Part shown: positions 21,665 through 43,016 of the stretch, one piece after another
Layout: every line of letters starts with the position of its first letter
Numbering within the stretch: position 1 is the first letter of the stretch
Assembly: GCA_900317555.1 (NCBI GenBank)
Contig: ONHF01000023.1
Location: forward strand, 1 to 44,985
Source of the DNA: an uncultured Lachnospiraceae bacterium
GTDB taxonomy: Bacteria; Bacillota; Clostridia; Lachnospirales; Lachnospiraceae
Direction of reading: 5' to 3'
Length of the DNA: 44,985 nucleotides
Notes under the pieces: model-generated
Database searches by the model: none
What the model was told of the DNA's origin: nothing
The model's input: the letters and a program-made list of their open reading frames with translations, nothing else
Translations under genes and position numbers: made by a program

Positions 21665-21689
21665 TTGTCAGGCTCCCTTTTAAAATTGT

Positions 21690-21741: not shown

Positions 21742-21790
21742 TCTTTCGCATTTACCGTAAAAAGTAATGGCTACAAAAAGGATCTTTATA

Positions 21791-22831: not shown

Positions 22832-22944
22832 AACTGCTCTCCTTCAACTATTAACTTGTGAATATCCTTGTTTGTCGTTTAAGCTTGGCAATCCATCAGG
22901 GGAGATTTCTTGCCTAATATCAACGTCAGATTCTTATGCACTAT

Positions 22945-24846: not shown

Positions 24847-24892
24847 TTTTGATATCCTCTATTCTATCGACGGTATAATTGCAATCATTGAA

Positions 24893-26746: not shown

Positions 26747-26833
26747 AGAATTCCCTTACCTCCGCAGAATATCTACACTGTCTTATCTGAAATCGATGCC
26801 GGATATAAAAACACAAACTTCCTTCTTGAATAG

Positions 26834-27679: not shown

Positions 27680-27728
27680 CTTTACGGCCTTTGTATTCTG
27701 AGTATGATGTCTTCCATGCAATGCGGTA

Positions 27729-28595: not shown

Positions 28596-28611
28596 GGCGG
28601 CCTGCTTTCTT

Positions 28612-28647
28612 CAGAACGAGAACTTCCGGCAGGAAGCTCTCGTTCTG
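28612..28647 (-). promoter_or_regulatory. Intercistronic hairpin after the cluster 1 binding-protein gene
   Basis: CAGAACGAGA (28612-28621) pairs with TCTCGTTCTG (28638-28647) and the stem continues as CTTCC/GGAAG. No T tract follows on the minus strand, so it looks like an mRNA-stabilising or processing element that keeps binding-protein message above permease message. Confidence 0.65.
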
Positions 28648-28694
28648 CTCTGTCATGATAAAACTATCAATAATTTCATTAATTGCTGTAAAAA

Positions 28695-30047
28695 TCAGCG
28701 CCCATTATCACTGTTGAATCTGCTCTCCGCATCCTTGAGCGCAGTCATTGGATCTGCATTATTCGTCAAGACATCCTGCACCGGATAGTTAAGATCGAGC
28801 TTCCAGCCAACATATGCCTTGTCATTTGCCGGAAGCCATCCCTGTGCAAATGCATCAAGCATCGACTGTAAGTATTTATTCTTATCTGTGATTTCGATCT
28901 TGTCGACAGTAGATTTTCTGTTAGGTGCCTGTCCGCCGATTTCAATCCATTTAAGATCAGATTCAGGTGAATACATTTTTTCAAGGAACTTACCCGCTTC
29001 TTCCTTATTCTTGGATCCGGACCATACACCCACAAACCAGCCATCAATTACAGTTCCACCCGGCAGAGGTGCAAACTGAATTGTGTCTCCATCAAAAGAA
29101 GCATTCTGACGCAGTGTAGAAAGACGTACTGCGCTTCCGACGGACATGGCGTATTTTCCTGCGGCAAACTCAGTATAAATATCCTCAATCGTTGTATTAA
29201 CGCTTTCAGAAGGAGTTATTCCGGCATCTACGCACTTCTTGGTCCATTCAAGGCCCTTGACTCCGCCGTCATTAGCCCAGTTAGCAGTACCATCTTTATT
29301 GAAGAGATCGCCATTTTCCTGAAGCAGCCAATTCACGATACACTGCGCATCATTGGTTTCGGTTGAGAACGACATTCCCATTCCGTATCGATCAATGCCG
29401 CTTGCATCTTTCCCGGTCAGCTTCACTCCCGCGTTATAAAGCTCATCAAAAGTCGTCGGCACTTCTATTCCGGCATCCTTAAGAAGGTCCTCGCGATAAA
29501 GGAAACCGGTACAATTTTTGTTCAGTGTCAGAGTATAATGTTTGCCATCGCGTTCGCCAAAACGGAAGAAGGTGTCATCTATATCGTCGATTTCGTCCTG
29601 CGTCCAGTCCTTCATAAACAGATTCTCAAGAGGTTCGAGGGCACCGGCATCAAGCACGCCATAGAGCTCATCTCGTGCACACCACATAATGTCCGGTGCA
29701 TCGCCGGATGCATTTGCTGCAAGGAACTTTGCTGTCATTGTTGTCCAGTCCTGTGGCTCAACAACGACCTTGACCCCAGGGTTTTCATCCTCGAATTCAT
29801 CGATCATCTGCTTAAGCGCTACTGATCTTCCATTTTCCGTATTTGTCGGATCAAGGAACGTCCACATCCTGATGGTAATTCCATCCCCTGATTCCGTACT
29901 TGCAGTAGATGCAGCCTTGCTCTCAGAAGCGGAATCTGTAGTAGCGGCCGCCGACGTCGATGTGGTGCTGCCGGTTGATCCGCATCCTGCAAGAAGCGCA
30001 ATCGCTGTTACCGAAGCAAGAGCCGCTGACAATACCTGTTTCTTCAT
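28695..30047 (-). CDS. Sugar ABC transporter substrate-binding lipoprotein, cluster 1
   Basis: A 450-residue lipoprotein anchored outside the membrane. The signal peptide MKKQVLSAALASVTAIALLA ends in a lipobox, LLAGC, followed by a Ser/Thr/Ala-rich linker of about 35 residues. The mature part is the family 1 sugar-binding fold (ITIRMWTFLD, then DEFEDENPGVKVVVEPQDW, DAPDIMWCARDELYGVL, and the late YSPESDLKWIEIGGQAPNRK). It is the first gene of the operon with a strong AAGGAGG site. The frame stays open to 30125, but the ATG at 30047 fits the signal peptide. The ligand is not predictable from sequence. Confidence 0.92.
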   Translation of the reverse strand: MKKQVLSAALASVTAIALLAGCGSTGSTTSTSAAATTDSASESKAASTASTESGDGITIRMWTFLDPTNTENGRSVALKQMIDEFEDENPGVKVVVEPQDWTTMTAKFLAANASGDAPDIMWCARDELYGVLDAGALEPLENLFMKDWTQDEIDDIDDTFFRFGERDGKHYTLTLNKNCTGFLYREDLLKDAGIEVPTTFDELYNAGVKLTGKDASGIDRYGMGMSFSTETNDAQCIVNWLLQENGDLFNKDGTANWANDGGVKGLEWTKKCVDAGITPSESVNTTIEDIYTEFAAGKYAMSVGSAVRLSTLRQNASFDGDTIQFAPLPGGTVIDGWFVGVWSGSKNKEEAGKFLEKMYSPESDLKWIEIGGQAPNRKSTVDKIEITDKNKYLQSMLDAFAQGWLPANDKAYVGWKLDLNYPVQDVLTNNADPMTALKDAESRFNSDNGR

Positions 30048-30140
30048 ACTTTTCCTCCTTTGTTTAAATTGTTTTGCTTTCCCCTTAAATTTCTCCAATT
30101 TGAATCTCCCCTGATTCATTGGCATCTTTAGGACAACTGT

Positions 30141-30458: not shown

Positions 30459-30739
30459 GAAGACTCATCCGCTGTTTCTTTACAACAGCCATTGATCCGA
30501 CATGGCGTCGTTTTATCATGAAAACATATACGAAATGGGGGTTGGCTAATTACGATACGTGTGGATTTGACTATCACTTTACAGATGAGGCAATGGTTCA
30601 GCTGCTGATTCATTCTACGATGGCAATCCTGGAGACGTGGCTGTCTCAGGAGAATCCAACGCCTCCGGAACAGTTTTCCGATGTTTTTATTAGAATTGTG
30701 AAGACTCCGATCTATGATCTGATATCGGTAAAGAAATAA
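30440..30739 (+). pseudogene. Truncated TetR-family regulator (C-terminal domain only)
   Basis: The frame gives 99 residues that resemble only the ligand-binding/dimerisation end of a TetR regulator: FTDEAMVQLLIHSTMAILET, then WLSQENPTPPEQFSDVFIRI and VKTPIYDLI. The N-terminal helix-turn-helix is missing and no ribosome site precedes the first ATG. The 5' end of the fragment runs straight into the tandem repeat array, as if an insertion event cut the gene. It is very unlikely to function as a DNA-binding regulator. Confidence 0.7.
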
Positions 30740-30745
30740 TAAATG

Positions 30746-30779
30746 CAAAAAAGAGCGGCCAGGAGGAGACTGGTCGCTC
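30746..30779 (-). terminator. Intrinsic terminator of the cluster 2 operon
   Basis: On the minus strand GAGCGACCAG and CTGGCCGCTC (plus-strand 30770-30779 and 30753-30762, one G-U pair) form a 10-bp stem with a 7-nt loop followed by TTTTTT. It ends the long operon whose last gene stops at 30914. The 134 bp between hold no recognisable gene. Confidence 0.9.
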
Positions 30780-30913
30780 TGGATGGGCAGGTTATGTTTG
30801 GACTTGTGCCAGCTCTGTCATTCTTATCCGATCATGTCTCTTCCGGTCTCCTCCCATACGCATCCATGCAATCCATCTCCGGATCCTTCATGCACAAGTG
30901 CACTGCCGCCGTC

Positions 30914-32311
30914 TTAAATGTTCCGGGAAGCGCGAGAACGGGGCCCGGCATATTTCTTCATTGCGTCCGTAAGCGCCTCCTCAAAGGTGGCTCTCGTTTT
31001 GAGACCCATCCCTCTCGCGTACCCCGGCTCCTGCGCACCCACAATATAAATCGCGCTTGTATTCATCTCCGCGATGTGTCCGCAGCTCATCATCGAGAAG
31101 CCATGGAACGGATGGAACGCGTTCGCGAAGCGGTACTTCCGTATATACTCTTCGTTTGTGGCAAAATACTCGCCAAGCCGGTTCATGTCCGGCAGCTGGT
31201 TCATCTGATCATGCTGGAATATATCATATAACTCCCGCAGATACGGCCAGCGGCTGTCATTGAAGAAACCATTGCATAAAGAAGAGCAGATGATGACACA
31301 GTGATCGCTCATCACCCGTTTGTATCGAAGCACCTGCGCGGACAGCGCCTGCATCATCATAATCGGATTGGTTCCCATGCCGTCACCGTAATGAAACTTC
31401 TGCGGCATGCCGAAGACAAGGATGTCGTACTTCTTTTCCGCCCAGTGAACATACGTCCTTTGATCCGCAAGCTTCCAGCTTTCCGGCATCATTTCCTTCG
31501 CGTAACCGGAATAGATCGCAATCTGTCTGCTTTTGGAATCGAGTACCGCATCGCAGCAGAAGAACGGATGCCCCATTTTCTCTTCCATATGCATTGAGAT
31601 TTCATCAAATTTATGACGCATCAAAGAACCGTTGTTGACAGGAGTGAAATCCGGCCGGTGCATGACTTCCGGGACATGATGACTTGCAATGCACTTCCAG
31701 TTTGTAATTCCGGTCGCGCTGTGCTTATAGCCGCCGCTGTAGCCGCCGTAAGGATTTCCCTGTACATGGCCGATCAGGATCGCAAGGTCCGCGTCGTAGA
31801 CAGCCTTATTCATCCAGACAGGGTCGCCGCGCTTTGTTTTGCCGAGGTCAATCATATTGTCCGGGTCCTCGGAATCATGACTTGTGATCTGACCTGTATG
31901 CCAGAACTCGTCAAAAAGCTCCGGTCCGAAGATCGCCTTCGCGTCCTGCTGCGTGCTTCTTGGATGCAGGCCGTTCGAAATGATGAACTGTATATCTTTT
32001 TTCTGTACGCCTGCTTCATATAAATCCTGCAGGATATACCTGCAGGCAAGTTTTCTGTGACTTGTCGTCTGCTCTCCGCCCTTGACGCGGTCCGGAATCA
32101 CAAAAACAACGCGGCTCCCCTTATGCACCAGTTCCTTTACGGGTGCCATGCCGATCGGGTGATCCAGACTTTCGCGGTATGCTCTTTCAAGCTGATCCCC
32201 GGGAATGTACGGCGGATCCGGTACAGTTACTCCCGGAACAAATATATCGGTCCAATCCGGAAGCTCTGCTCCCATTGTTCCGGCTCCGTATTCAAAATCC
32301 AGATATTTCAT
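30914..32311 (-). CDS. LarA-like nickel-pincer racemase/epimerase family protein (DUF2088)
   Basis: A 465-residue homologue of lactate racemase LarA. LarA carries a nickel pincer nucleotide covalently bound to a lysine and racemises 2-hydroxyacids by hydride transfer. Landmarks are FVIPDRVKGGEQTTSHRKLA (Arg and His region), ISNGLHPRST, and the cofactor-lysine block GGYSGGYKHSATGITN, where LarA has SGGRK. A histidine-rich ASHHVPEVMHR follows. The changed block and length indicate a different substrate from lactate. LarB, LarC and LarE, needed to make the cofactor, are not in this window. It is the last gene of the sugar operon, so a sugar acid or other C3-C6 hydroxyacid is likely. Confidence 0.8.
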   Translation of the reverse strand: MKYLDFEYGAGTMGAELPDWTDIFVPGVTVPDPPYIPGDQLERAYRESLDHPIGMAPVKELVHKGSRVVFVIPDRVKGGEQTTSHRKLACRYILQDLYEAGVQKKDIQFIISNGLHPRSTQQDAKAIFGPELFDEFWHTGQITSHDSEDPDNMIDLGKTKRGDPVWMNKAVYDADLAILIGHVQGNPYGGYSGGYKHSATGITNWKCIASHHVPEVMHRPDFTPVNNGSLMRHKFDEISMHMEEKMGHPFFCCDAVLDSKSRQIAIYSGYAKEMMPESWKLADQRTYVHWAEKKYDILVFGMPQKFHYGDGMGTNPIMMMQALSAQVLRYKRVMSDHCVIICSSLCNGFFNDSRWPYLRELYDIFQHDQMNQLPDMNRLGEYFATNEEYIRKYRFANAFHPFHGFSMMSCGHIAEMNTSAIYIVGAQEPGYARGMGLKTRATFEEALTDAMKKYAGPRSRASRNI

Positions 32312-32360
32312 AGTGGTATTTCCTCTCCCTGCTGCTTTTGCAAAACTGTCCCGGCGAAAT

Positions 32361-33287
32361 TTACTTCACGGCTCCGGCAAAACTCTCCCCGCGCAATTTC
32401 TCTGCTTTCCCCGGAGGCGAAATCTCAATTCCCTGTGTGCAGGTAAACGTCTCTCCGGGGCTTAGAGCAAGGATCGCCGTTTTCTTTTCAATGCTGCCGT
32501 CCGCATTGAAAAGATCCGGCAGCCCGTACCACGGTTCGATGCAGACAAACGGCACATCCGCGCGGTTCGACCACACGAGAAGATACGGGAAAGCTTTCAT
32601 ATGGACACGTACGTACTCATGCGTCACTGTATTGAAAAGCTCCATATAGGAAGACTTCGGATGATCCAGAATCAGCGTATCCGGGAAGGTTCCACCGGCA
32701 GCCGGAATTCTGTTTTCTGCTGCATGCAGCGGGCTTTTCGTGCCTGTTATAAGACCGTCATTTGTTTTGTCATAACACAGCGGATTCTCCGCATCAGCGA
32801 AACGCAGTACGCAGTCGGAAGCGCTGCCCGTCCTGCCCGGAGGACAGAAAAATCCTGTGTGGAAGCCAATCGAGAAGTACATGGTTTCACTGCCGGTATT
32901 TCTGACGAGGGCTGTCTGGTCCAGCCTTCTCCCTGCAAGCTGATATGTAATCTCCAGTTCGTAATGATACGGATAGATTTCTTCCGTTGTCTCATTTCCC
33001 GTAAAGCGAAGGCGCAGGTGCTCCGCATCCGCGCTTATTACTTCATGTTCATAGTCGCGTGCGAAGCCGTGCATCGGTATCTGACGGTCTTTTCCGGCGA
33101 TCCGTATTTTACCTTCTTTCAAAGCTCCCGTGACGGGAAACAGGATCGGCGCGCGCCTCGGCCAGATTTCTTTATCACCCTGCCAGAGAAACTCTCTGTC
33201 ATCCTCTCTTCTTTTCAGGCTCCAGAGCTCCGCTCCCATTGTATTGACTGCTGCCGCGATGTAATCGTTATAAAGTATTTCCAGCAT
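32361..33287 (-). CDS. Aldose 1-epimerase-family mutarotase (LacX-like)
   Basis: A 308-residue beta-sandwich protein of the galactose mutarotase superfamily that interconverts alpha and beta anomers. It has the conserved ELWSLKRREDDREFLWQGD, APILFPVTGALKEGKIRIAG, the catalytic-type histidines in IPMHGFARD and IGFHTGF, and the acidic VCIEPWYGLPD near the C-terminus. It resembles the LacX branch, whose substrates are poorly known. The start follows GAGGAAG. In this operon it would feed the correct anomer to the isomerase. Confidence 0.85.
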   Translation of the reverse strand: MLEILYNDYIAAAVNTMGAELWSLKRREDDREFLWQGDKEIWPRRAPILFPVTGALKEGKIRIAGKDRQIPMHGFARDYEHEVISADAEHLRLRFTGNETTEEIYPYHYELEITYQLAGRRLDQTALVRNTGSETMYFSIGFHTGFFCPPGRTGSASDCVLRFADAENPLCYDKTNDGLITGTKSPLHAAENRIPAAGGTFPDTLILDHPKSSYMELFNTVTHEYVRVHMKAFPYLLVWSNRADVPFVCIEPWYGLPDLFNADGSIEKKTAILALSPGETFTCTQGIEISPPGKAEKLRGESFAGAVK

Positions 33288-33314
33288 GGATTCTTCCTCG
33301 TGCTTTTTGTTCTT

Positions 33315-34478
33315 TCAGTCAAAACGGAAAAACGGCTCGAACGGCTCTCCCAGAAGCGGCGAAAGCCACTTGCAGAACGCCTCGTTCATACCGTTGCCTC
33401 TTGCGTTTATAAAGCGCTCCGGCACTTTGTTTTCATACATCATAACGTCTTCGATCGGAATACGGATCGGATCAACATGGTATCTTTCTCCCGGTGCCCT
33501 GCGAAATCCGATCATGAAGCCGGTATCGCCCTGCAGGACCGCCCGAACGGCTTCCTGCCCGGCGAGAATAGCTTCTTCCCGGTCCACACAGGACTGATAC
33601 TCGATGCCTGCTCTTCCCGCAATGCCGGGCTTTTCGCTTCTGGCCTTATAACCCAGTCTGCGGATGACAAGCTCCGCAAGATGCGCGCTGACATCGCCAT
33701 AGTACACGCTTCTGCCGGTCTGATAAATCGGTTTTACAATCGGCTCTCCATCGTCTCCGCGAAGGCCTTCGCTGCAGACAACAACCGCGCAGCGGTTCCG
33801 GTCTATGCATTTTTGCACATCCTCCAGAAACTCCTCTTCATGGAACGGCCGTTCCGGAAGATAGACAAGATCAGGTCCGTACCCTTTATCCCTTGCAAGC
33901 ACGGAAGCCGCTGTAATCCAGCCGGCATTTCTGCCCATCGCTTCGACAACACTTACATGGATCGGAAGCGCGTGTACATCTTCCGCGATATTGGCTGTTG
34001 TAGACGCAATGTAGCGTGCTGCGCTCGGGTATCCCGGCGCGTGATCCGTAACCGCAAGATCATTGTCAATGGTTTTGGGAATGCCGCCGACACAGATCTC
34101 CAGTCCTTCGTCCCTGCAGGCATGATAAATTTTCCCGCAGGTATCCATACTTCCGTTGCCGCCGTTAAAAAGGACATACCGGATTTTATATTTTCCAAGG
34201 ATCCGCGCGATCATTTTATAATCTTCCGGCTCCAGCTGATCGCGGCTGCTGCCGATGACAGATGCGGGCGTTACGGGAAGCAGGCGTCGCTTTTCCTCCG
34301 GTATCTGCAAAAGGTCGCGGAACCGTTCTTTCAGGATCGCGCCTGAGCCGCCTATCGCGGCATACACATGCCCGATCTCACCATGCTGCCCGGCCTCTTT
34401 GATAACGCCGTAAACCGAAGCGTTCATGACCGCAGTCGGCGCACCGCCATGGACAAGAAGCAGATTCTGCTCTTTCAC
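33315..34478 (-). CDS. Phosphofructokinase-family kinase (PPi-type, mixed active site)
   Basis: A 387-residue member of the PfkA superfamily, group with PPi-dependent and atypical enzymes. Fold motifs: HGGAPTAVMNAS, GSSRDQLEPED, the phosphoryl site PKTIDNDLAVTDHAPGYPSA, and EAMGRNAGW. The lysine of PKTIDND favours PPi or atypical donors over the ATP enzyme's PGTIDND. The other diagnostic site reads GGNGSMDT: glycine as in ATP enzymes, and Asn replacing the Asp that helps bind magnesium. Phosphoryl donor and sugar are therefore uncertain. It starts with GTG after AGGAGGAG. Its place between isomerase and mutarotase, with an aldolase in the operon, suggests phosphorylation of a ketose phosphate or unusual ketose. 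Confidence 0.85.
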   Translation of the reverse strand: MKEQNLLLVHGGAPTAVMNASVYGVIKEAGQHGEIGHVYAAIGGSGAILKERFRDLLQIPEEKRRLLPVTPASVIGSSRDQLEPEDYKMIARILGKYKIRYVLFNGGNGSMDTCGKIYHACRDEGLEICVGGIPKTIDNDLAVTDHAPGYPSAARYIASTTANIAEDVHALPIHVSVVEAMGRNAGWITAASVLARDKGYGPDLVYLPERPFHEEEFLEDVQKCIDRNRCAVVVCSEGLRGDDGEPIVKPIYQTGRSVYYGDVSAHLAELVIRRLGYKARSEKPGIAGRAGIEYQSCVDREEAILAGQEAVRAVLQGDTGFMIGFRRAPGERYHVDPIRIPIEDVMMYENKVPERFINARGNGMNEAFCKWLSPLLGEPFEPFFRFD

Positions 34479-34490
34479 GAATTTCTCCTC

Positions 34491-35837
34491 CTAGAGTTCT
34501 ACTACGGGAATGCCAAGAATCCCTGCAATCATCCGAAGATCCTCTGCAATATCGGACCAGACAAGCGCATAGTGATGACTCATGCCCGTCTCTTCGATAT
34601 GATCTACGAGTGTGGTTACCGGCGTATTTGTTTTGACATTAACCATGCACCCTCTCGTGTTTCTCTTCGTCGGCACGGCAGTGCCCGGAAGCAGAAACAG
34701 CCGATACTGTCCGTCAATGTTCGAAAAGCGTGCTGCCGTCACGACTCCGCTCTTTAATGAACACCAGAATGCGGATCCCTGTCCTGCCAGAGGATGGTCT
34801 GCAAGTACAACACCGTCTTCTTTATCATGCAGGCTCGGCGCACCGTTCCCGCAATGCCAGAATGTCACTGTGTTCTCCTCTTCCGAAAGGTTGATGAGAT
34901 CCGCAATAAAGGTCACTTTTCCGGTCAAAACATGTTCAAGATACGCCGTGATGCCTGCATCCACATCACCTTCACAGGTGATATGAATTCCCTCATCCGC
35001 AAGGCGCCCGAGCACGGCGCAGGGCTGCGTCTTCGCGTTTCCCATTTCCGGCCAGCACTTGATCGTGGAATAGGCGTAGCCAAGTGCCGGATATATTTTT
35101 TTCAGGGCAAGATACAGCCGGCAGTGGTTTTCAAGGTGTCCGGGCGGCATGAGAGAAGTGTCCCAGAGAGACATGACATGCTGTTCCTCCTTTGTCACCT
35201 CCTCTTCCGGTATCTCTTTCATCTGATCAAACAGGACTTTAAGCTCCGTCTCCTCCAGACGGATTCCGAACGTCTTCCGCAGGAGTACTTCATCGGAGGC
35301 GCAGTTGTAAAAAGCGGTCGGCCGATAGCCGAACAGGCCGAACGTCGTTCCCCTGAGCGCGTGTACTGCTGAATAGGCGCGGACAATCTTCCGGATTTTA
35401 TCTGTGGCTTTTGTGTCATCACAGTTGCCGTACACGATATAGTGCGGCGCCTGCAGGCGGCGCAGACTTGCTCCGTTCATCGAAGCGCAGCACAGTCCGT
35501 TTGCGTACATTCTTTCATCGCGGTCCCATGCGTCCTCTTTCGGCGCCCAGAGAATAACCGGAACCCGCAGCTGCTCATAAATTCCGCAGCAGATGTCATC
35601 TCCGGTGAAGGCGCCGATTATCTGTATAACGAGATCCACCGCGCTTTTCCGGAAGATTTCGACGGCCTCCAAAAGCTCTGCCTGACTTCCGACAATCTTT
35701 TCAAAGACGCATACCTTGGTATCTCCGAGATTTTTTCTGCACCAGTCTCCATAGAGCCGGAGTCTTTTTTCCGGAAGCTCTCGCGGCCACCTTCCGGAGC
35801 AGGATGTGATAACACCAATGTGAAGTTTGTTTTCCAT
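34491..35837 (-). CDS. L-fucose/L-arabinose isomerase-like protein
   Basis: A 448-residue protein of the fucose/arabinose isomerase-like fold, which interconverts aldoses and ketoses with a divalent metal. It begins IGVITSCSGRWPRELPEKRL with a Rossmann-like first domain (AVDLVIQIIGAFTGDDICCG). Later come FGLFGYRPTAFYNCASDEVL, the probable metal-site region CWPEMGNAKTQPCAVLGRLA with CEGDVDAGITAYLEHVLTG, and a late TFWHCGNGAPS histidine. It is shorter and more divergent than true FucI, so the substrate is not predictable. Isomerisation of the imported aldose before the kinase step is inferred. Confidence 0.8.
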   Translation of the reverse strand: MENKLHIGVITSCSGRWPRELPEKRLRLYGDWCRKNLGDTKVCVFEKIVGSQAELLEAVEIFRKSAVDLVIQIIGAFTGDDICCGIYEQLRVPVILWAPKEDAWDRDERMYANGLCCASMNGASLRRLQAPHYIVYGNCDDTKATDKIRKIVRAYSAVHALRGTTFGLFGYRPTAFYNCASDEVLLRKTFGIRLEETELKVLFDQMKEIPEEEVTKEEQHVMSLWDTSLMPPGHLENHCRLYLALKKIYPALGYAYSTIKCWPEMGNAKTQPCAVLGRLADEGIHITCEGDVDAGITAYLEHVLTGKVTFIADLINLSEEENTVTFWHCGNGAPSLHDKEDGVVLADHPLAGQGSAFWCSLKSGVVTAARFSNIDGQYRLFLLPGTAVPTKRNTRGCMVNVKTNTPVTTLVDHIEETGMSHHYALVWSDIAEDLRMIAGILGIPVVEL

Positions 35838-35862
35838 CGTCTTCTTCCTCCCGAAGCTCCAG

Positions 35863-36918
35863 TCACTTCAGCACGATCGCCTGTGTCAAATGCCGCGGAG
35901 AATCGGCGTTAATGCCTTTTTTGAGAGAGATATAATAACCAAGGAACTGTCCGATAAATCCCATCATCGCAGCCGCCTGATATTCGCTGTAAGAAGGATT
36001 CGTCGCCAGGTGATAGCGAAGGCCTTTCATATTGTCCGTATGCGGACCGATGCCGCAGGTTACACCGGAAAAGCTCTGCATCTGCTCCATCAGCGCTTCA
36101 TCGGTCTTCTCTGTTTTTTCATTTGAAAGCAGAATCAACAGGGTGTTCTCATCCACCAGGCTCATCGGGCCGTGCCGGTACTCCATCGAATAATATGCCT
36201 CGCTGTTGGAGATGCCCATCTCCTTCATCTTGTTCATGCATTCGTTGCTGATTCCGTAATACGCGCCCTGTCCGAGCGTAATGAAAAGATTCAGATCCGG
36301 ATTCTCGCGTACGATCTTTTCGGCGAGCGCGTCACACTCTTTCAGCATCTTGCCGGCTTCCTCCCGGTAACCGGCCATCTCTTTGATCCATTCCTCATGT
36401 CCCGATACATGCATGCTCAGAATCTGCGCAAGGAAAATCATTGCCGTAAAGCTTCTTGTCATGATGACGCTGTCTTCCGCTGTGTCGGGTGCCAGAACAT
36501 AATGTTCGTTGTACAGGCGGCTGTCTTTATCGCAGGTAATCGCAAGACTCGTTACTCCCGGCAGCTCATGCACCCGGTCAATGGCTTTCCTGACTTCTGT
36601 CGTGTAACTTTTCCGGGTAATCGGCAGTACCAGCGTCTTCTTCCCCTTGATATAGTTTTCCGGGAAAAACAAAAGCTCGCTGCAAGGTACCGCCTCTGCC
36701 GGCGTGCTGTTCATGGCCCTCCAGAGATAAGCGGAGGTCTGCGCGAGATACAGGCTTGTCCCGCAGCCTGTAAAAATCAGCTGATCATATTTCTCGCTGA
36801 AGACCTCATCCAGCGTTGCCTCTATCTCCGGAAGGGTATTCAGTATCGCCTGAAAAGAATCCGGCTGACCGTAGATTTCATGATAGGTCAGCGTGCTGTT
36901 TTTCATTGTATGATTCAT
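35863..36918 (-). CDS. Double SIS-domain sugar isomerase/deglycase-like protein
   Basis: A 351-residue protein with two sugar-isomerase (SIS) domains, like the isomerase half of GlmS and like AgaS and FrlB. The first domain has QLIFTGCGTSLYLAQTSAYL and LVLPITRKSYTTEVRKAID, the second FITLGQGAYYGISNECMNKM then SEAYYSMEYRHGPMSLVDEN; the latter is the GlmS-type EYRHGP signature. Relatives deaminate or deglycate amino-sugar phosphates or fructosamine phosphates. Where this family binds with SGET-type loops, the sequence here reads TRKSYTTE, so ligand binding may differ. Its presence suggests the operon handles an N-substituted or amino sugar. Confidence 0.83.
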   Translation of the reverse strand: MNHTMKNSTLTYHEIYGQPDSFQAILNTLPEIEATLDEVFSEKYDQLIFTGCGTSLYLAQTSAYLWRAMNSTPAEAVPCSELLFFPENYIKGKKTLVLPITRKSYTTEVRKAIDRVHELPGVTSLAITCDKDSRLYNEHYVLAPDTAEDSVIMTRSFTAMIFLAQILSMHVSGHEEWIKEMAGYREEAGKMLKECDALAEKIVRENPDLNLFITLGQGAYYGISNECMNKMKEMGISNSEAYYSMEYRHGPMSLVDENTLLILLSNEKTEKTDEALMEQMQSFSGVTCGIGPHTDNMKGLRYHLATNPSYSEYQAAAMMGFIGQFLGYYISLKKGINADSPRHLTQAIVLK

Positions 36919-36939
36919 TATTCTGTCTCTCTTTCGAAT

Positions 36940-37668
36940 TTATGTAAATAACATATAGATGCCCGCAAAGATCATGAATACATAGACAACCTTGCGGAAC
37001 GTTTCCTGTCTGATCCTTTGGAAAACCGCCATTCCTGCCGCTGTTCCGGCGCCAAGACCGAGCAGCGCGAAAAGGCTGAATATCCACACTTCTTTTGTCA
37101 GGTGCCCCATGAGCAGGTGGGTGAAGAAAAGATACAGCGTTGAAAGGAAAAAATACATCTGCAGCGTCGCCGTATACTCCTCCTTGGAATCTGTAACTCC
37201 AAGGAAGTACAACACCATCGGCGGTCCGCCAATGCTCATCATGCCTCCCATGATGCCGCTCATCATACCGGCGGCCAATCCCGCTGCCGGAAGGCTGCGG
37301 GGCTTTCTCTGTGTCCGCTTCCGCATCATGCGGACCGAAAGCAGAATAAGACAGCTCCCCAGAATCTTCCGGAGCAGCTGCTCCGGTGCTTCCGCCTGAA
37401 TGCGGATGCCGATGTAACCGAATATCGCGCTAACCAGCATCGGCAGAGCGATTAATTTCCAGCGGATACTTTTCCTGTACCGCAGCGCTATGACGCAGAC
37501 CATGACAGAGGATGTGAACACTTCGATCACGGCTGCGGTCTGTATCTTCAATATCAGCGGCAAAACAGACATCACCACAATCGCATACCCGAACCCGCCG
37601 ACCGCCTGAATGAAACTTCCCGCGAATGCCGCCGTCATAACGATTGCCATGATGCTGCCGTGCTGCAT
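36940..37668 (-). CDS. TauE/SafE-family membrane transporter
   Basis: A 242-residue integral membrane protein with about seven or eight membrane segments. It has the two glycine-rich repeats of the family: AAFAGSFIQAVGGFGYAIVV near the N-terminus and GLAAGMMSGIMGGMMSIGGP in the middle. The family exports sulfite, sulfoacetate and other small organic anions and is often linked to organosulfonate metabolism. It sits inside the sugar operon between the aldolase and SIS genes with gaps of 12 and 21 bp, so it probably exports an end product of the pathway. Confidence 0.88.
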   Translation of the reverse strand: MQHGSIMAIVMTAAFAGSFIQAVGGFGYAIVVMSVLPLILKIQTAAVIEVFTSSVMVCVIALRYRKSIRWKLIALPMLVSAIFGYIGIRIQAEAPEQLLRKILGSCLILLSVRMMRKRTQRKPRSLPAAGLAAGMMSGIMGGMMSIGGPPMVLYFLGVTDSKEEYTATLQMYFFLSTLYLFFTHLLMGHLTKEVWIFSLFALLGLGAGTAAGMAVFQRIRQETFRKVVYVFMIFAGIYMLFT

Positions 37669-37680
37669 ATGTTTTCCCTT

Positions 37681-38535
37681 CTACCGCGCTTTTCCGGCAG
37701 AACCGGAAAGCTCTATGATTTTCTTGATATCCTCGCAAAGAGCATTGGAGGCGTACTGGCTCAGAAGCCAGCTGTGCCCTTTGTGATCGAGGTTTTGAAG
37801 CGCCTCCTGATAGTGCTGCACATACTTATAACGGATTTCCGTTCCGAAATTGATCTTTGCTACGCCAAGGCTGATCGCGTCTTTGATAACCGACTCGTCC
37901 ATCCCGGTACAGCCGTGCAGAACCAGAGGAATATCCGTGAACTTCCGCACATTTTCCAGCACGTCCAGATGAATGTCCGGCTTTCCGTGATAATAGCCAT
38001 GTGCGTTTCCGATCCCGATCGCAAGTGTGTCAGGCCGGCACAGGCCAAGAAATTCCCGGACCATTTCGGGGTCTGCGATATTCTTGTTCTCCTGCGGCAC
38101 ACCGTTGTCCAGCCGCTGCAATTCGCCGATCTCCGCTTCGACCGGTACGCCAAAACATTTCGCGACTTTGATCACTTCATTCGTAACGTCTGCATTTTCT
38201 TTGACCGGAAGCATTGAACCGTCAATCATCACGCTGGTAAAGCCGAGTTTCAGTGCGCCCATACAGGTCGCGAAGTCAGCCCCGTGGTCCAGATGGATGG
38301 AGCAGGGAACCGACACTTTACCCGCGCACCATTTCGCGACATTGACAAAGAAATCATTACCCGAAAAAGCACCGGTCGAAACATAATGCGCAAGTATAAT
38401 CGGACTTTCCATCTCCTGCGCCGCCTTGCAGCATGCCATGATAATATCGTAGTTCCCTCCCTGCGTATTGATTGCAGGGATCGCGTAGCCCTCCCGCGAA
38501 GCTTTTTGAAGATTTGCTAAATTTGTAGTCAGCAT
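37681..38535 (-). CDS. Class II fructose/tagatose-bisphosphate aldolase-family protein
   Basis: A 284-residue zinc aldolase that splits a ketose (bis)phosphate into DHAP and an aldehyde. Zinc and catalytic motifs are SIHLDHGAD (His, catalytic Asp), VEAEIGELQ, GIGNAHGYYHGKPDIHLDVL (His) and PLVLHGCTGMDE (His). The closest well-known relatives are GatY/KbaY and Fba. Its neighbours are the ABC permease genes upstream and the TauE/SafE gene downstream. With the kinase-like gene in the same operon it probably cleaves the phosphorylated pathway intermediate. Confidence 0.9.
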   Translation of the reverse strand: MLTTNLANLQKASREGYAIPAINTQGGNYDIIMACCKAAQEMESPIILAHYVSTGAFSGNDFFVNVAKWCAGKVSVPCSIHLDHGADFATCMGALKLGFTSVMIDGSMLPVKENADVTNEVIKVAKCFGVPVEAEIGELQRLDNGVPQENKNIADPEMVREFLGLCRPDTLAIGIGNAHGYYHGKPDIHLDVLENVRKFTDIPLVLHGCTGMDESVIKDAISLGVAKINFGTEIRYKYVQHYQEALQNLDHKGHSWLLSQYASNALCEDIKKIIELSGSAGKAR

Positions 38536-38555
38536 TTTCTGTCCTTTCTTAATTC

Positions 38556-39395
38556 TTACCCCTTCACGGCACCGGCCACAAGCCCCTTGATCATATACTT
38601 CTGGAAGAAGAAAAATATCAGGATCATCGGCAGCATCGCGACTACGGAAATTGTATTGACAAGTGACCAGTCATACGAGAGTTCTCCCAGATACCGGAGT
38701 GCGACACCCGTAGACAAGGTGCGCAGTGAATCGCTCTGAATCAGCGTCGCGCAGTGAAGATAGTCATCCCAGGTCATCAGAAACGCATAGATGAGTACGC
38801 TGACAAGTCCGGGTTTTACGAGAGGAAGTACCACGCTCGTCATCGTCTGTATTCTGGAGGCGCCGTCAATTTTGGCTGCCTCCTCAATATCCACGGGGAT
38901 GCTGTCAAAAAAGCTGCTCATCAGCATCGTTGTAAACGGAACCATTGCAGCAATGAGGGCAAGAATCAATCCCGTGAGTGTATTCAGAAGATGCACTTTC
39001 CCGAGAAGCCCGTACAACGAAATCATCCTCGATACGACCGGAAACATCTGGCTCGCGTACAGCACGCCGGAAACCACACTGTTCCAGTGATAGTGGAACC
39101 TCGAAAGTGCATATCCGGCGAGTATGGCGCAGAAGGTTGTAACTAGCGCGGTGATACCGCTGACGATAAAGTTATTCCGATAATATATGAAGAACTCCGC
39201 ATTCTGCCGGAACAACTTTACGTAAGACTGCACGGACGGGTTCTTCGCAATCATGGTCGGCGGATACATGTAAGCTTCCATGTTTGATTTGAAGCTGGTC
39301 AGGATCACCCAGTACAGCGGAAACATCAGAAATAACATGATGATGACCAGCACAAGGTATTTGAGGATTCTGGAAGCGGTTCTTTTCTTTTTCAT
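38556..39395 (-). CDS. Carbohydrate ABC transporter permease (MalG-type), cluster 2
   Basis: A 279-residue inner-membrane permease with six predicted membrane segments. The EAA coupling loop is EEAAKIDGASRIQTMTSVVL, and the protein ends FFQKYMIKGLVAGAVKG, as usual for the family. It starts 12 bp after the partner permease gene with a strong AGGGGG site. As in cluster 1, no ATPase gene accompanies it. Confidence 0.92.
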   Translation of the reverse strand: MKKKRTASRILKYLVLVIIMLFLMFPLYWVILTSFKSNMEAYMYPPTMIAKNPSVQSYVKLFRQNAEFFIYYRNNFIVSGITALVTTFCAILAGYALSRFHYHWNSVVSGVLYASQMFPVVSRMISLYGLLGKVHLLNTLTGLILALIAAMVPFTTMLMSSFFDSIPVDIEEAAKIDGASRIQTMTSVVLPLVKPGLVSVLIYAFLMTWDDYLHCATLIQSDSLRTLSTGVALRYLGELSYDWSLVNTISVVAMLPMILIFFFFQKYMIKGLVAGAVKG

Positions 39396-39407
39396 TCCCT
39401 GTTCCCC

Positions 39408-40346
39408 CTAAGTCGTCTGGTTGTCGCCCATGAGCTTATTGAAAACAATCACAACAACGATCATAAGAAGCATCCAGACGGTGGTAACCGCGGCGCCGCT
39501 ACCCAGATTATTGGATACAAAAGCTTCTCTGTAACTCAAAATCGCGAGCGTAGTTGTGCTGTTGTCCGGCCCGCCTCCGGTCATCGTCCAGATGAGAGGG
39601 AACTGCTTGAAGTTTTCAATAATGGCCATCGAAAGGACGACCTTGATGACGCTCTTCATATATGGAAGCGTGATTCTGAAGAAGCGGTTCCAGGCATTTG
39701 CGCCGTCCATAATGGCTGCTTCCTCAATCGAATCCGGCACGTTCTGCAGTCCCGAAAGCAAAAGCAATGTCGTTAACGGTATCTGTTTCCAAAGCGCCGC
39801 TATCGCGATGCCCGCAAGCGCTGTTGAAGGATTATTCAAAAGCGCAAGGTCCGTAACTCTCCCTCCCGTGACAATGCCTGTGAACCAGCGGATAAAACCG
39901 TACTGCGGCTGAAAAAGCCACATCCACGTAAGCGCGGAAATCACAGTCGGGACACACCACGGCATCATCATGATCGAGCGCAGAAATCTTGCTCCTTTGA
40001 TATCGGAATTGAGCACCAGCGCGAGTGCCATTCCGAACACAAACTGGAGCAGCACGACCACGAGACAAAACAAAAATGTATGCACAATTGCCGGGCCGAG
40101 CTTTGCGTTCGCGGTAAGCTTGATATAGTTTGCAAAATTATTCCATTCACCCGGTCGTCCGGAGATGATGTTTTTCATCTTGTAATCTAGGAAGCTCTCC
40201 CGGACCGAATCAATGACCGGCACCAGAATGAATATGGTGGTGATTACAACCGCAGGAAGAAGCAGAAGAAGAGAAAACCCCAGATCCCTCTTTTTCCGCG
40301 TCATCTGTGCACCTTGACTAACTCGCATCGTCTTGCTCCTGTTCAT
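39408..40346 (-). CDS. Carbohydrate ABC transporter permease (MalF/UgpA-type), cluster 2
   Basis: A 312-residue inner-membrane permease with about six membrane segments after a basic N-terminal tail. The EAA loop reads EEAAIMDGANAWNRFFRITL, and TMTGGGPDNSTTTLAILSYR is the typical late motif. GGGAG lies 6 nt before the first ATG. It pairs with the next gene to form the membrane channel for the sugar bound by the upstream lipoprotein. Confidence 0.92.
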   Translation of the reverse strand: MNRSKTMRVSQGAQMTRKKRDLGFSLLLLLPAVVITTIFILVPVIDSVRESFLDYKMKNIISGRPGEWNNFANYIKLTANAKLGPAIVHTFLFCLVVVLLQFVFGMALALVLNSDIKGARFLRSIMMMPWCVPTVISALTWMWLFQPQYGFIRWFTGIVTGGRVTDLALLNNPSTALAGIAIAALWKQIPLTTLLLLSGLQNVPDSIEEAAIMDGANAWNRFFRITLPYMKSVIKVVLSMAIIENFKQFPLIWTMTGGGPDNSTTTLAILSYREAFVSNNLGSGAAVTTVWMLLMIVVVIVFNKLMGDNQTT

Positions 40347-40364
40347 ATCCGTCTCCCTTTGCGC

Positions 40365-40401
40365 ATGAGAGGCCGGACGTTTTCTTTGTCCGGCCTCTCA
40401 T
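40365..40401 (-). promoter_or_regulatory. Intercistronic hairpin after the cluster 2 binding-protein gene
   Basis: ATGAGAGGCCGGAC (40365-40378) and GTCCGGCCTCTCAT (40388-40401) form a perfect 14-bp stem with a 9-nt loop between binding-protein and permease genes. No T tract follows on the minus strand. As in cluster 1, it probably protects the upstream mRNA or limits read-through. Confidence 0.75.
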
Positions 40402-40422
40402 CTGCGTTCCGAAATTTTTCAA

Positions 40423-41781
40423 TTACTGAAGCAATGTTTTTGCCGATGCGCGGAACTCTTCAATCGCCTTGTCAACATCCTCATCTGAAACAGTCACGGC
40501 CTGCGCCAGTGTATCCAGTTCCAGATTCAGGTCATTCAGCTGCGGAATCGAAGGCGATGCAACCGCCGTGCTGATTGAATCAGCCGCTCCCGTAAGCACC
40601 GCGTTGTCAGGCTGGGACATCGACTTCATCGCCGGATACGCCGGAACAATATTCGCAAGGTAATCACCAAGGACTTCGTCCCTCAGGATGTATTCGATCA
40701 GCTCCTTTACAGCTTCCTTTCTCGCGTCACCGTTGTCTGCAAGAATAAGGACCGCAGCGCTTAAAATCGACGCGCCGTCTCCGCTGCCGCCTTTTAACGG
40801 AACTGCGGATTTCGTATAAGTTTCCGCATCCTTGTTAATCGCCTTCACACCGGCAATTCCCCAGCTCTGGTCGTAGTACATGGCCAGCTGACCGAGCGCA
40901 AACAGGTTCCTGAGATCCTTAAGCTTGGCGTTCTGCGGATTATAACCCTTGTCATCAAGCGTCTGCAGCATTTCGAACGTCTGATGAAAACCGTCATTGT
41001 CAATCGAAAGATTACCGTCAGCATCAAGAACCTGACCTCCGAAATTGTAAATCATGGAATTGATGCTGGTTCCCGAAATCGGCACGGATGCGGTTGTCTG
41101 ACCGAACGGATAGATTACGTTGCCGTCAGCAGTTTTCATACCGTTTATTTTTTCGCAGTCCGCAAGCAGTTCATCATAGGTCGCGGGCGGATTGTCAATC
41201 CCTGCCTGTTTGAAAATGTCCGTGTTGTAGTAAAGAATAAATGGAGAAACATACAGCGGCACACCGTAAGCCGTGCCGTCTATGGAACAGCTTTCCACTG
41301 CGTTTTCATGGAAGCCGGAAACAAAGTCTTCACCTAGAACATCCGACACAGGTACGGCAAAGCCGGCGTCCTCATATGTCGAAATCCATGTATTCTCGCC
41401 AAAAACAATGTCGCACTTATCCCCCGCGCCGGCCATCGTGATAACCTGGCTTGTAATATCCGCATAAGGTGCCGTTACCCATTCGATCGTCACATTCGGA
41501 TGTTCTTTTTCAAAGCCCTCCTTGACTCCGTTCCAGAAATCCGTGTAAGCATCCTCAAGCAGAGCATAGTTGGCAAACTTGATAGTCACAGGTTCTGCTG
41601 ATGTTTCCGTCTCTGCATTTTCCGCTGTTTTTTCTGTCCCCGCAGCCAGCGTTTCTTTGCTTGTTTGTGCCGCATCTTTGCCTGCCCCGGAACTTCCGCC
41701 GCTGCCGCAGGCAGTGAGCCCGCCGACAAGACAAACTGCCGTTATCATGGTGATCCACTTACGAACGATTTGTTTTTGCAT
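40423..41781 (-). CDS. Sugar ABC transporter substrate-binding lipoprotein, cluster 2
   Basis: A 452-residue lipoprotein. The signal peptide (KQIVRKWITMITAVCLVGGL) ends at a TAC lipobox cysteine, followed by a Gly/Ser and acidic linker. The mature protein has the family 1 binding-protein pattern: ITIKFANYALLEDAY-like opening (VTIKFANYALLEDAYTDFW), EHPNVTIEWVTAPYADITSQ, DIVFGENTWISTYEDAGFAV and YGVPLYVSPFILYYNTDIFK. The frame extends to 41817, but the ATG at 41781 follows GGAGGG at 5 nt and matches the signal peptide. Ligand unknown. It is the first structural gene after the operator region. Confidence 0.92.
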   Translation of the reverse strand: MQKQIVRKWITMITAVCLVGGLTACGSGGSSGAGKDAAQTSKETLAAGTEKTAENAETETSAEPVTIKFANYALLEDAYTDFWNGVKEGFEKEHPNVTIEWVTAPYADITSQVITMAGAGDKCDIVFGENTWISTYEDAGFAVPVSDVLGEDFVSGFHENAVESCSIDGTAYGVPLYVSPFILYYNTDIFKQAGIDNPPATYDELLADCEKINGMKTADGNVIYPFGQTTASVPISGTSINSMIYNFGGQVLDADGNLSIDNDGFHQTFEMLQTLDDKGYNPQNAKLKDLRNLFALGQLAMYYDQSWGIAGVKAINKDAETYTKSAVPLKGGSGDGASILSAAVLILADNGDARKEAVKELIEYILRDEVLGDYLANIVPAYPAMKSMSQPDNAVLTGAADSISTAVASPSIPQLNDLNLELDTLAQAVTVSDEDVDKAIEEFRASAKTLLQ

Positions 41782-41809
41782 AATACCCTCCTTGTAAAAT
41801 CCCCCGTTT

Positions 41810-41886
41810 ATACACACGTGTGTATTTCAGGGTTAAATAAAAGTAAGCAAAATGCTTACTTACAGTATCTATACACTCGTATGTAT
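41810..41886 (-). promoter_or_regulatory. LacI-type operator pair flanking a third palindrome
   Basis: A perfect 16-bp palindrome with a central CG, ATACACACGTGTGTAT, lies at 41810-41825. A close copy, ATACACTCGTATGTAT, lies at 41871-41886. Their centres are 61 bp apart. Between them AAGTAAGCA (41841-41849), AAA, TGCTTACTT (41853-41861) forms a different perfect inverted repeat. The paired CG-centred sites fit a LacI-family repressor, probably the one encoded just upstream, bound as a loop-forming tetramer or as two dimers. The middle site may bind another regulator. Confidence 0.8.
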
Positions 41887-41899
41887 TTGTCGCATTATC

Positions 41900-41928
41900 A
41901 CAATATCACTGTCTGTATAGTCTGTCAA
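41900..41928 (-). promoter_or_regulatory. Cluster 2 operon promoter
   Basis: On the minus strand TTGACA (41923-41928), 17 bp, TATTGT (41900-41905) preceded by TG at the extended -10 position. The near operator at 41871-41886 covers about +8 to +23, a roadblock position. Confidence 0.7.
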
Positions 41929-41957
41929 TAGACCTATCCATGCATATTTCTTCTATA

Positions 41958-43016
41958 TCAGTCTGCTTTAATATCCGTGCTTCCTCTGCAGATCAGCTTC
42001 GTATGATAGACGACTTTGTCAGGGATCTCATGATTTACAATCATTTTCTGGAGCATGTCGATTGCTGTCCCGGCAATCAGATCTCGCGGAATTTCCACAC
42101 TTGTGATTGAAGGCGTTGAATACTGGCCTAGCAGCGAGTTATCGAACCCGACAACTGCAATATCTTCCGGTATTCTCTTTCCCAGTTCCTGCGCTGCATG
42201 CATCGCTATGCAGGCTACTCTGTCATTTCTTCCGAAGATGGCATTTACCTCCGGGTGTACGGTAATATAATTCTTAACCTTCTCAGCAATTTCCTCCGGG
42301 CTATGACAGCCCGAGAGAACCTGTCGCTGCGGCTGCTCCGATAACTTCCTGGCTTTCATTTCATTAATAAAACCGCGGTAACGCATATCGCTCATATCGC
42401 TGTAGTGATTGTTCCGGCTGAAACGGTCAATGTACACAATATTTCTGCGCCCCAGAGAATCCAGGTAGCGGATGACATCCCGCGCGCCGTCGTACAGGCC
42501 GTTGTCAATCTTGCCGGCATTCTCTATGTCCGAGTAGTCTCTGTTTTCGAGCAAAACAACCGGAATACCCGCATTGATAATTTCACGGATATAATCCTTG
42601 GGAAAACTGATCGAGCTGATAATGACACCGTCAAACTGTCTGGAAATAATGCTGTTCACAAACTCCTCGGTGTTGCGGTTTTGGCAAAGAGAGATCATAT
42701 ATCCGAGATCATAAGCTTTTGTGTCCATCTCACTAAGAAGGAGCGAAAAATGTTCCGTGACAATCTGATCCGCGATGAATACGATGTGATTCAACCGCTT
42801 CCCTTTCAAAGCTCTTGCGGCAGTATTCGGCCTGTATCCAAGCTTCTTGACCGCGGCGAGCACGCGCTGCCTTTTATCGCTGCTGACATAGCGGTTGTTA
42901 TTCAAAACATAGGATACGATCGTCTCGGTTACGCCCGCTTCCCGCGCGACATCTTTTCTGGTAATTCTCTGGTATCTGGCTGTTTCTGACGCTGTGGACT
43001 GTTTTTCCGATTCCAT
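41958..43016 (-). CDS. LacI-family transcriptional regulator
   Basis: A 352-residue repressor. The N-terminal helix-turn-helix and hinge read ITRKDVAREAGVTETIVSYV then SSDKRQRVLAAVKKLGYRPN and TAARALKGK. The periplasmic-binding-protein-like core has FDGVIISSISFPKDY, NAIFGRNDRVACIAMHAAQE and the late VGFDNSLLGQYSTPSITSVE. It lies directly upstream of the binding-protein gene on the same strand, separated by a promoter and CG-centred palindromes, so it most likely controls cluster 2 in response to the imported sugar or a metabolite. Confidence 0.93.
   Translation of the reverse strand: MESEKQSTASETARYQRITRKDVAREAGVTETIVSYVLNNNRYVSSDKRQRVLAAVKKLGYRPNTAARALKGKRLNHIVFIADQIVTEHFSLLLSEMDTKAYDLGYMISLCQNRNTEEFVNSIISRQFDGVIISSISFPKDYIREIINAGIPVVLLENRDYSDIENAGKIDNGLYDGARDVIRYLDSLGRRNIVYIDRFSRNNHYSDMSDMRYRGFINEMKARKLSEQPQRQVLSGCHSPEEIAEKVKNYITVHPEVNAIFGRNDRVACIAMHAAQELGKRIPEDIAVVGFDNSLLGQYSTPSITSVEIPRDLIAGTAIDMLQKMIVNHEIPDKVVYHTKLICRGSTDIKAD

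Follow-up and report, generated by a model that had tools for sequence, protein, structure and literature searches.

An operon with a single-histidine LarA homologue in an uncultured Lachnospiraceae bacterium may encode a sulfoglycolysis-like pathway for sugars with a nonphosphate anion at C-6

A predicted pathway for 6-X-hexoses and 6-X-hexosamines

The 44,985-nucleotide contig ONHF01000023.1 (assembly GCA_900317555.1) of an uncultured Lachnospiraceae bacterium, here called the window, carries an operon of 11 genes on the minus strand, running from 43016 to 30914 and followed by a terminator-like hairpin. By profile its products belong to the families LacI, SBP_bac_1, BPD_transp_1 (two permeases), F_bP_aldolase, TauE, SIS, Fucose_iso_C, PFK (phosphofructokinase), and Aldose_epim, and the last gene encodes a homologue of the nickel-pincer enzyme LarA. 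On balance, and at slightly better than even chances, we favor the view that the operon encodes an Embden-Meyerhof-type, sulfoglycolysis-like route whose substrates are hexoses and hexosamines with a nonphosphate anion, X, at C-6. X is most likely a sulfonate, in which case the substrates would be sulfoquinovose (SQ) and its 2-amino analogue, and is possibly a sulfate ester. This reading would give the single-histidine LarA proteins, whose structures have been solved, a substrate class open to testing, and it would extend sulfoglycolysis by an amino-sugar variant with a new C3 end.

The substrates and reactions of the route are all predicted from homology. The ABC importer would bring in the sugar, and the mutarotase would open it. 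An isomerase with the arabinose/fucose isomerase fold would convert the aldose to 6-X-fructose, and the SIS enzyme would produce the same compound from the 2-amino sugar, releasing ammonia. The operon's PFK-family kinase would then form 6-X-fructose-1-phosphate, which the class II aldolase would cleave to dihydroxyacetone phosphate (DHAP), passing to glycolysis, and a C3-X aldehyde, which is 3-sulfolactaldehyde (SLA) if X is a sulfonate. In place of an SLA reductase or dehydrogenase, a homologue of triosephosphate isomerase (TIM) encoded in another LarA cluster of the genome, here called TIMx, would turn the aldehyde into a ketone, the sulfonate analogue of DHAP. LarA would take this ketone as its substrate, and TauE would export the sulfur-containing end product. 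The operon encodes no SLA reductase, SLA dehydrogenase, or sulfoquinovosidase, a search that did not extend to the remainder of the genome.

A first-pass annotation of the window had outlined a route of uptake, mutarotation, isomerization, phosphorylation, and aldol cleavage resembling sulfoglycolysis, with the SIS protein hinting at an amino sugar. The altered NagA and NagB homologues, the Ssu-like importers, and the TauE genes found around LarA in other genomes support that outline, and its substrate is still putative. TIMx, which is encoded outside the window beside a second LarA, was not visible to that annotation.

LarA belongs to a subfamily with one catalytic histidine

The window LarA (30914..32311, minus strand) is closest in the Protein Data Bank (PDB) to LarA_Bw (9q3j, 906 bits) and LarA_Sp (9q2u, 750 bits), and the next LarA structure, the malate racemase Mar2, reaches only 72 bits. 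It scores 107 to 164 bits against the NCBIfam equivalog models of lactate racemase and LarAH5, 6, 10, and 14 to 16, below their cut-offs of 460 to 740. Whereas the characterized LarA racemases and epimerases use two catalytic histidines, the second is replaced by asparagine (N186) in the window protein, with H116, K196, and H211 retained. LarA_Bw and LarA_Sp (PDB 9q3j, 9q2u, and 9q3k) share the asparagine and the other active-site residues tested, and judged by these residues the window LarA belongs to the same single-histidine subfamily. The asparagine also occurs, together with the first histidine, the lysine linking the nickel-pincer nucleotide, and the nickel-binding histidine, in the more distant relatives L119 to L124 and L126. 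According to the accessible text of the structural study, this subfamily has asparagine for the second catalytic histidine and a bound unidentified ligand of 316.5 Da, and its larA genes lie near carbohydrate genes for TIM, aldolase, glucosamine-6-phosphate isomerase, mutarotase, and others (PMC12611868). That text reports no substrate for LarA_Bw or LarA_Sp, and its authors suggest potential carbohydrate-processing enzymes (PMC12611868). When produced in Lactococcus lactis, LarA_Bw lacked the cofactor (PMC12611868). The word sulfonate is absent from the text of PMC12611868, and none of the open-licence PMC literature matches listed ties a single-histidine LarA or the TIM homologue to sulfonates. 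Plasmid-borne LarA relatives (13 records, at most 27% identity and at most 65% query cover) were considered as a source of information and set aside as uninformative.

The first-pass annotation had read TauE and LarA together as pointing to an anionic or hydroxyacid product. We no longer draw that conclusion, since the sulfo-TAL-like locus L110 combines TauE with an SLA reductase homologue, and one of the two catalytic histidines is missing from this LarA subfamily. One coordinate also needs correction: at 30914 lies the stop codon of a larA whose frame is shifted, and the conserved C-terminal stretch runs on in another frame (30914 to 30990). The larA copy of L003, from another metagenome-assembled genome, reads through at this site. 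The frameshift may be an assembly error or a real mutation.

TIMx and Ssu-like importers often accompany LarA

Gene content, synteny, co-occurrence, and residue changes around LarA were observed directly in the best 80 of 408 LarA relatives from a scan of species genomes and in genome samples of the order and phylum. Genes were called with our own caller based on codon usage, because simply taking the longest open reading frames produced numerous spurious genes where loci were GC rich; families were assigned by profile on representatives. Two loci in which the caller missed LarA (L043 and L048) were left out of the counts. Among the remaining 78, TIMx (about 280 amino acids) is present in 67, a 384-amino-acid class II aldolase in 55, and PFK in 54, followed by NagA (36), a phosphoglucose isomerase (PGI) homologue (35), NagB (31), TauE (29), SsuA-like proteins (29), and SsuC-like proteins (27). 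Since many loci are truncated and the absence of a gene from a locus means little, further counts were made on loci of at least 19 kb (n = 43) or at least 16 kb (n = 54). The SsuB profile, which may match any ABC ATPase, was excluded from the evidence.

In the 43 longest loci, TIMx occurs in 35, the 384-amino-acid aldolase in 33, and PFK in 30, with all three together in 24. At least one of NagA, NagB, PGI, and SIS is found in 34 of the 43, and an SsuA- or SsuC-like component or TauE in 37 (both in 15, Ssu only in 13, TauE only in 9). Two layouts recur among the 54 loci of at least 16 kb, one combining NagA/NagB, SsuA, a two-component system, and TauE, the other PGI with a family 3 glycoside hydrolase (GH3). 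Blautia, Roseburia (R. inulinivorans at L031), and Gemmiger are present in the locus list. Conserved synteny outside this strain, on which the first-pass annotation had staked its proposal, thus extends widely across LarA relatives. Among more distant LarAs (45 to 62% identity), PFK, aldolase, TIMx, and TauE are kept in L119, L121, L122, and L126, of which the last three come from one genus, and TIMx is the only one of these partners kept in L120. The LarA of L125 (28 to 32% identity, serine at the asparagine position) lies outside the subfamily and adjoins Ssu-like genes. In L120 (5284-11424), the divergent LarA and TIMx adjoin genes for a glycine-cleavage-H-like protein and an arylsulfotransferase-family protein. 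In L022, L076, and L077, short-chain dehydrogenase and Zn-alcohol dehydrogenase genes lie within the LarA cluster; their products possibly handle the LarA product.

In a sample of 392 genomes of the order to which the window belongs, LarA (E ≤ 1e-100) and TIMx (E ≤ 1e-35) occur in the same 29 genomes with none discordant, so that the sample contains no LarA genome without TIMx. In the phylum sample, LarA was found in 9 of 398 genomes (E ≤ 1e-40). The window's genome itself has a second LarA cluster, which encodes an SsuA-like protein (truncated at the edge of the sequence analyzed), a sensor kinase, a response regulator, NagB, NagA, PGI, PFK, aldolase, LarA, and TIMx, and the window operon could therefore borrow TIMx from it. 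LarC is detected in 23 of the 29 LarA genomes versus 188 of the 363 without LarA (P = 0.006 by Fisher test; like the other statistical tests made here, it takes no account of how the genomes are related).

Anion-site motifs are altered in five enzyme families

Sugar enzymes of the LarA clusters differ from their ordinary relatives at anion sites. In TIMx, loop 7 reads YGGG in 68 of 68 sequences (YGGS in none) and loop 8 is ALTR-type in 67 of 68, while the stretches with the catalytic Lys, His, and Glu are kept (NLKR in 65, GHCEE in 68, and YEPxWSIG in 64 of 68); the housekeeping TIM of the window's genome retains YGGS and GG. The PGI homologues carry AKNFET (34 of 35) versus SKSGTT in the housekeeping PGI, the NagB homologues PVGPVGQ (27 of 31) versus ATGGTP in 2bkv, and the SIS homologues, the window protein included, TRKSYTTEV (6 of 6) versus SRSGETTEV in 2cb0. 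Same-genome controls were made for TIM and PGI. The NagA homologues have HQHxP (34 of 36) and in no case HHRE, and motif mapping places the arginine lost from them at the invariant arginine discussed in PMC6016474. The accessible text of that paper describes this arginine as a proposed contact of the 6-phosphate in Mycobacterium tuberculosis NagA and reports that R225A abolishes activity of M. marinum NagA (PMC6016474). These altered motifs speak against ordinary 6-phosphates and in favor of a different anion at C-6, with no preference for a sulfonate over a sulfate ester.

Loci with an oxidase homologue suggest a ketone substrate

Three loci, L011 (9962-19264), L019, and L082, combine LarA and Ssu-like genes with a homologue of type-2 glycerol-3-phosphate oxidase and a pyridine-nucleotide oxidoreductase. 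The L011 oxidase homologue scores 285 bits against a cut-off of 460, and L011 also has DUF1667 by Pfam. By profile, the three loci contain no TIMx, PFK, aldolase, NagA, NagB, or PGI. In 12 genomes chosen from the 80, TIMx is absent behind these three loci and behind L009, L018, L007, and L069; it is present in the five sugar-type genomes, including those of L003, L005, L025, and L041, whose loci lack it. It is possible that L011, L019, and L082 encode a pathway for 2,3-dihydroxypropane-1-sulfonate (DHPS). If the oxidase homologue oxidizes DHPS, an analogue of glycerol-3-phosphate, both routes would meet at the ketone analogous to DHAP, which would then be the likely substrate of LarA. Judged by the three TIMx-less loci, LarA may act on the ketone form.

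In loci of the L011 type, LarA is the only enzyme left to yield a usable carbon compound, which led us to the tentative idea, with the odds against it, that LarA is a nickel-pincer C-S lyase that releases sulfite from the sulfonate analogue of DHAP. The ketone would come from TIMx in the sugar pathways and from the glycerol-3-phosphate-oxidase-like enzyme acting on DHPS in the L011-type loci, and the pincer cofactor would accept a hydride or sulfite itself. Sulfite is described, in the accessible text of PMC11851776, as reacting with the pincer cofactor of lactate racemase. A single catalytic base would be enough, because C-S cleavage is not a mirror-image racemization. If LarA does cleave C-S bonds, this would be a nonisomerase reaction of the pincer cofactor and a desulfonation of C3 sulfonates without glycyl radicals; gut Firmicutes such as Blautia, Roseburia, and Gemmiger would then be an unrecognized source of sulfite from dietary or host sulfonates, with a bearing on the formation of sulfide in the gut.

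A rival to the sulfonate assignment, and one that we consider unlikely, is that X is a sulfate ester and that N-acetylglucosamine-6-sulfate (GlcNAc-6-sulfate) from mucin or glycosaminoglycans and related 6-sulfated sugars are degraded without a sulfatase to DHAP and glyceraldehyde-3-sulfate, which TIMx and LarA would process. NagA and NagB are frequent in LarA loci (36 and 31 of 78), gut sources are named for many of the locus records, and Ssu-like importers can serve sulfate esters too. GlcNAc-6-sulfate is a substrate of two mycobacterial NagA enzymes, with a Km 7-fold higher than for the phosphate, according to the accessible text of PMC6016474. Against this stand L011, L019, and L082, which we infer to be better matched to DHPS, known to arise when SQ is degraded, than to glycerol-3-sulfate. 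The PGI- and isomerase-type loci are also harder to account for, 6-sulfated glucose not being a common sugar.

The isomerase, the SIS protein, and known sulfoglycolytic systems

The product of 34491..35837 (minus strand) is a putative aldose-ketose isomerase that scores 217 bits on NF048012, the SftI model, short of the cut-off of 700, and is a distant relative of SftI and SqvD. Its AlphaFold model (pLDDT 88.9) best matches L-arabinose and L-fucose isomerases in the PDB (TMq 0.77 to 0.85), so that by this model it has the L-arabinose/L-fucose isomerase fold. E289, D313, and H422 are invariant in 10 isomerase sequences, and we take them to be putative metal ligands. Close relatives (49 to 61% identity) occur in six other genomes of the order sample. 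The same aldolase adjoins the isomerase gene in all six, the same importer and regulator in three (L099, L101, and L104), and SIS in two of these; L101 adds NagA, LarA, and PFK, and L104 adds PGI, TauE, and LarC. Of the genomes with a close isomerase (at least 50% identity, the window's genome included), 7 of 7 are among the 29 with LarA and TIMx, versus 7 of 65 with distant relatives. The proposition that the window protein is a proven SQ isomerase was rejected, as the isomerases of L105, L106, and L109 outscore it on the SftI model (264 to 267 bits). In L105 (5610-12506), the SftI-like isomerase lies with a class II aldolase, Dak1, Dak2, an AP_endonuc_2 protein, and GH42, and L106 and L109 have a similar layout.

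The double-SIS protein (35863..36918, minus strand; PF01380) is GlmD/GlmS-isomerase-like. Its best profile is the GlmD-like glucosamine-6-phosphate deaminase (NF041128), at 154.6 bits against a cut-off of 580, and it scores 115 bits to 2cb0. It shares the double-SIS architecture with the GlmD and GlmS isomerase-domain deaminases; their SRSGET reads TRKSYT in the window protein. We propose from its sequence that it may be the deaminase/isomerase of a 6-X-hexosamine.

The nearest known system is sulfo-EMP2, a form of Embden-Meyerhof-type sulfoglycolysis, and we regard it as distinctly unlikely that the operon is an ordinary sulfo-EMP2 pathway for SQ with its SLA reductase encoded elsewhere and LarA as an accessory, for example racemizing a C3 sulfonate for export. 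As described in the accessible text of PMC9594981, sulfo-EMP2 of Bacillus urumqiensis and Megamonas rupellensis uses a FucI/AraA-fold isomerase (SqvD), a PF00365 kinase (SqiK), and a PF01116 class II aldolase (SqiA), with a YihR mutarotase in some variants, and its listed enzymes do not include SIS or NagA/NagB (PMC9594981). The window kinase and aldolase belong to the same two families, which does not imply SqiK or SqiA orthology. The window isomerase misses the SqvD/SftI cut-off and has the fold and the three invariant putative ligands in common. The SLA-reductase-like genes beside LarA in L123 and L124 would also suit ordinary sulfo-EMP2. In contrast to sulfo-EMP2, however, the window operon lacks a sulfoquinovosidase and an SLA reductase or dehydrogenase and has SIS and LarA, with TIMx elsewhere in the genome. 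Among the called genes of L003 to L082, neither the SLA reductase nor the transaldolase of L110 has a homologue, and the family 31 glycoside hydrolase (GH31) of L110 has only two weak matches (L018, 30%; L028, 23%). The complete co-occurrence of TIMx and LarA in the order sample likewise speaks against an accessory LarA, and the loss of one catalytic histidine makes a reversible racemase unlikely, an argument found in the accessible text of PMC12611868.

Sulfo-TAL (SftI, SftT, SLA reductase, and TauE) shares with the window the SftI-family isomerase and TauE, as seen in L110, and differs from it in that a transaldolase replaces the kinase and aldolase and an SLA reductase homologue is present. 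We assign L110 as sulfo-TAL-like by gene content and L107 and L108 by homology to L110, an assignment made from sequence in which all three isomerases also fall below the SftI cut-off (351 to 419 of 700 bits). The accessible text of PMC8873060 places TauE and an ABC importer in sulfo-EMP clusters of Arthrobacter as well.

A last alternative is that the operon degrades a neutral rare hexose or sugar phosphate and that LarA processes a sugar, in line with the suggestion of the LarA_Bw authors. This would suit the sugar-type importer and the density in LarA_Sp modeled, "highly speculatively" in their words, as a linear phosphorylated aldose (accessible text of PMC12611868). It is very unlikely given the absence from the operon of a hexokinase to supply the PFK substrate, the altered motifs in five enzyme families, the presence of Ssu-like components or TauE in 37 of the 43 loci of at least 19 kb, and the three loci L011, L019, and L082, where LarA and Ssu-like genes stand together and every core sugar enzyme is missing.

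Observations that weigh against the proposed pathway

A number of observations count against the sulfoglycolysis-like route. The window importer is of the sugar type, not Ssu-like, and the operon has no glycosidase. Neither LarC nor LarE was found in the window's own genome (G000, 87% complete; no LarE match over the cut-off), and LarC is missing from 6 of the 29 LarA genomes (G000, G094, G102, G180, G181, and G327). SsuA/SsuC and TauE are both missing from 6 of the 43 loci that reach 19 kb, and the GH3 loci (9 of the 54 of at least 16 kb) have no NagA and no SsuA. The SsuA-like proteins that were scored all fall under the SsuA_fam cut-off (63 to 155 bits against 163.5), as the Ssu-like permeases do under theirs, so these importers are Ssu/Tau-like by family only. 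Gene 9 of L123 and gene 5 of L124 are the SLA-reductase-like genes mentioned above (28 to 29% identity), with no TIMx found in either stretch. Of the isomerases that outscore the window's on the SftI model, that of L105 lies in a cluster whose Dak1, Dak2, and GH42 genes do not look sulfoglycolytic.

The anion-site argument has its own weak points. Because similarity was the basis on which the clusters were formed, some of the motif conservation inside them is to be expected, and the residues taken to bind phosphate in TIM, PGI, NagB, and SIS are presumed ones. In M. smegmatis NagA, the phosphate is bound by Arg-219, and the adjacent Arg-220 points away, in the accessible text of PMC6016474.

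The ketone argument is also affected. Only three of the seven TIMx-less genomes show the oxidase; L069 lacks TIMx in locus and genome, yet has no oxidase homologue, and L006 carries an oxidase homologue and TIMx together. L007, L009, and L018 are seen only as LarA on truncated contigs, and the completeness of the 12 genomes is not given. We rejected the idea that the presence of TauE proves sulfite release, since the sulfo-TAL-like L110 has TauE beside its SLA reductase homologue, and L011, L019, and L082 have no TauE; the TauE of a sulfo-TAL cluster is a probable 3-sulfopropionate exporter in the accessible text of PMC11489063.

Layout and other features of the operon

The genes named by the first-pass annotation are all present, on one strand, tightly spaced, and terminator-like at their end. 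Intergenic gaps are 12 to 49 bases, except for 76 between the binding protein and permease genes and 140 between lacI and the binding protein gene. The arrangement is more than a chance one: the same gene order is found in L003, with 89 to 99% identity and lacI seen in part only, and parts of the operon recur in L099 to L104. All features below are on the minus strand.

The LacI-family regulator (352 amino acids; 41958..43016; PF00356 and Peripla_BP_3) has relatives at the head of related operons in L099 (64%), L101 (49%), and L104 (50%). Two features between lacI and the binding protein gene are consensus matches only: at 41928-41900, TTGACA-17-TATTGT resembles a promoter, and at 41861-41841 a 9-bp palindrome may be an operator. 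The importer genes encode a binding protein of the sugar type (40423..41817; 464 amino acids from the listed GTG; SBP_bac_1, E = 2.1e-38), a UgpA-like permease (39408..40346; PF00528; best NCBIfam match UgpA at 134 bits, not reaching the cut-off of 335), and a second permease (38556..39395; PF00528), and include no ATPase.

The predicted class II ketose-1-phosphate aldolase (37681..38535; cluster c16; PF01116, 252 bits) retains HLDHG and later HG motifs and has relatives at 59 to 77% within LarA or isomerase clusters. TauE (36940..37668; PF01925), an exporter by family, has homologues at 40 to 44% in other LarA loci. The PFK-family kinase (33315..34478; GTG start; PF00365) scores 374 bits on NF010675, above the cut-off of 273. 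It has GGNGS where the pyrophosphate (PPi) enzyme 3k2q has GGGDS, and the donor could be ATP or PPi; a histidine at the position held by lysine in the PPi enzyme was not counted as evidence. The aldose 1-epimerase, or mutarotase, lies at 32361..33287 (PF01263). Just past larA is an intrinsic-terminator-like hairpin with a T-run (within about 30734..30783; -14.5 kcal/mol), which is absent from the list of a separate consensus scan. A second cluster, putatively catabolic, neighbors the operon (19494-30125) and encodes a binding protein, two FAD_oxidored proteins (PF12831), a Zn-alcohol dehydrogenase, a xylose-isomerase-like TIM barrel, and a ROK protein, together with two unannotated open reading frames of permease size.

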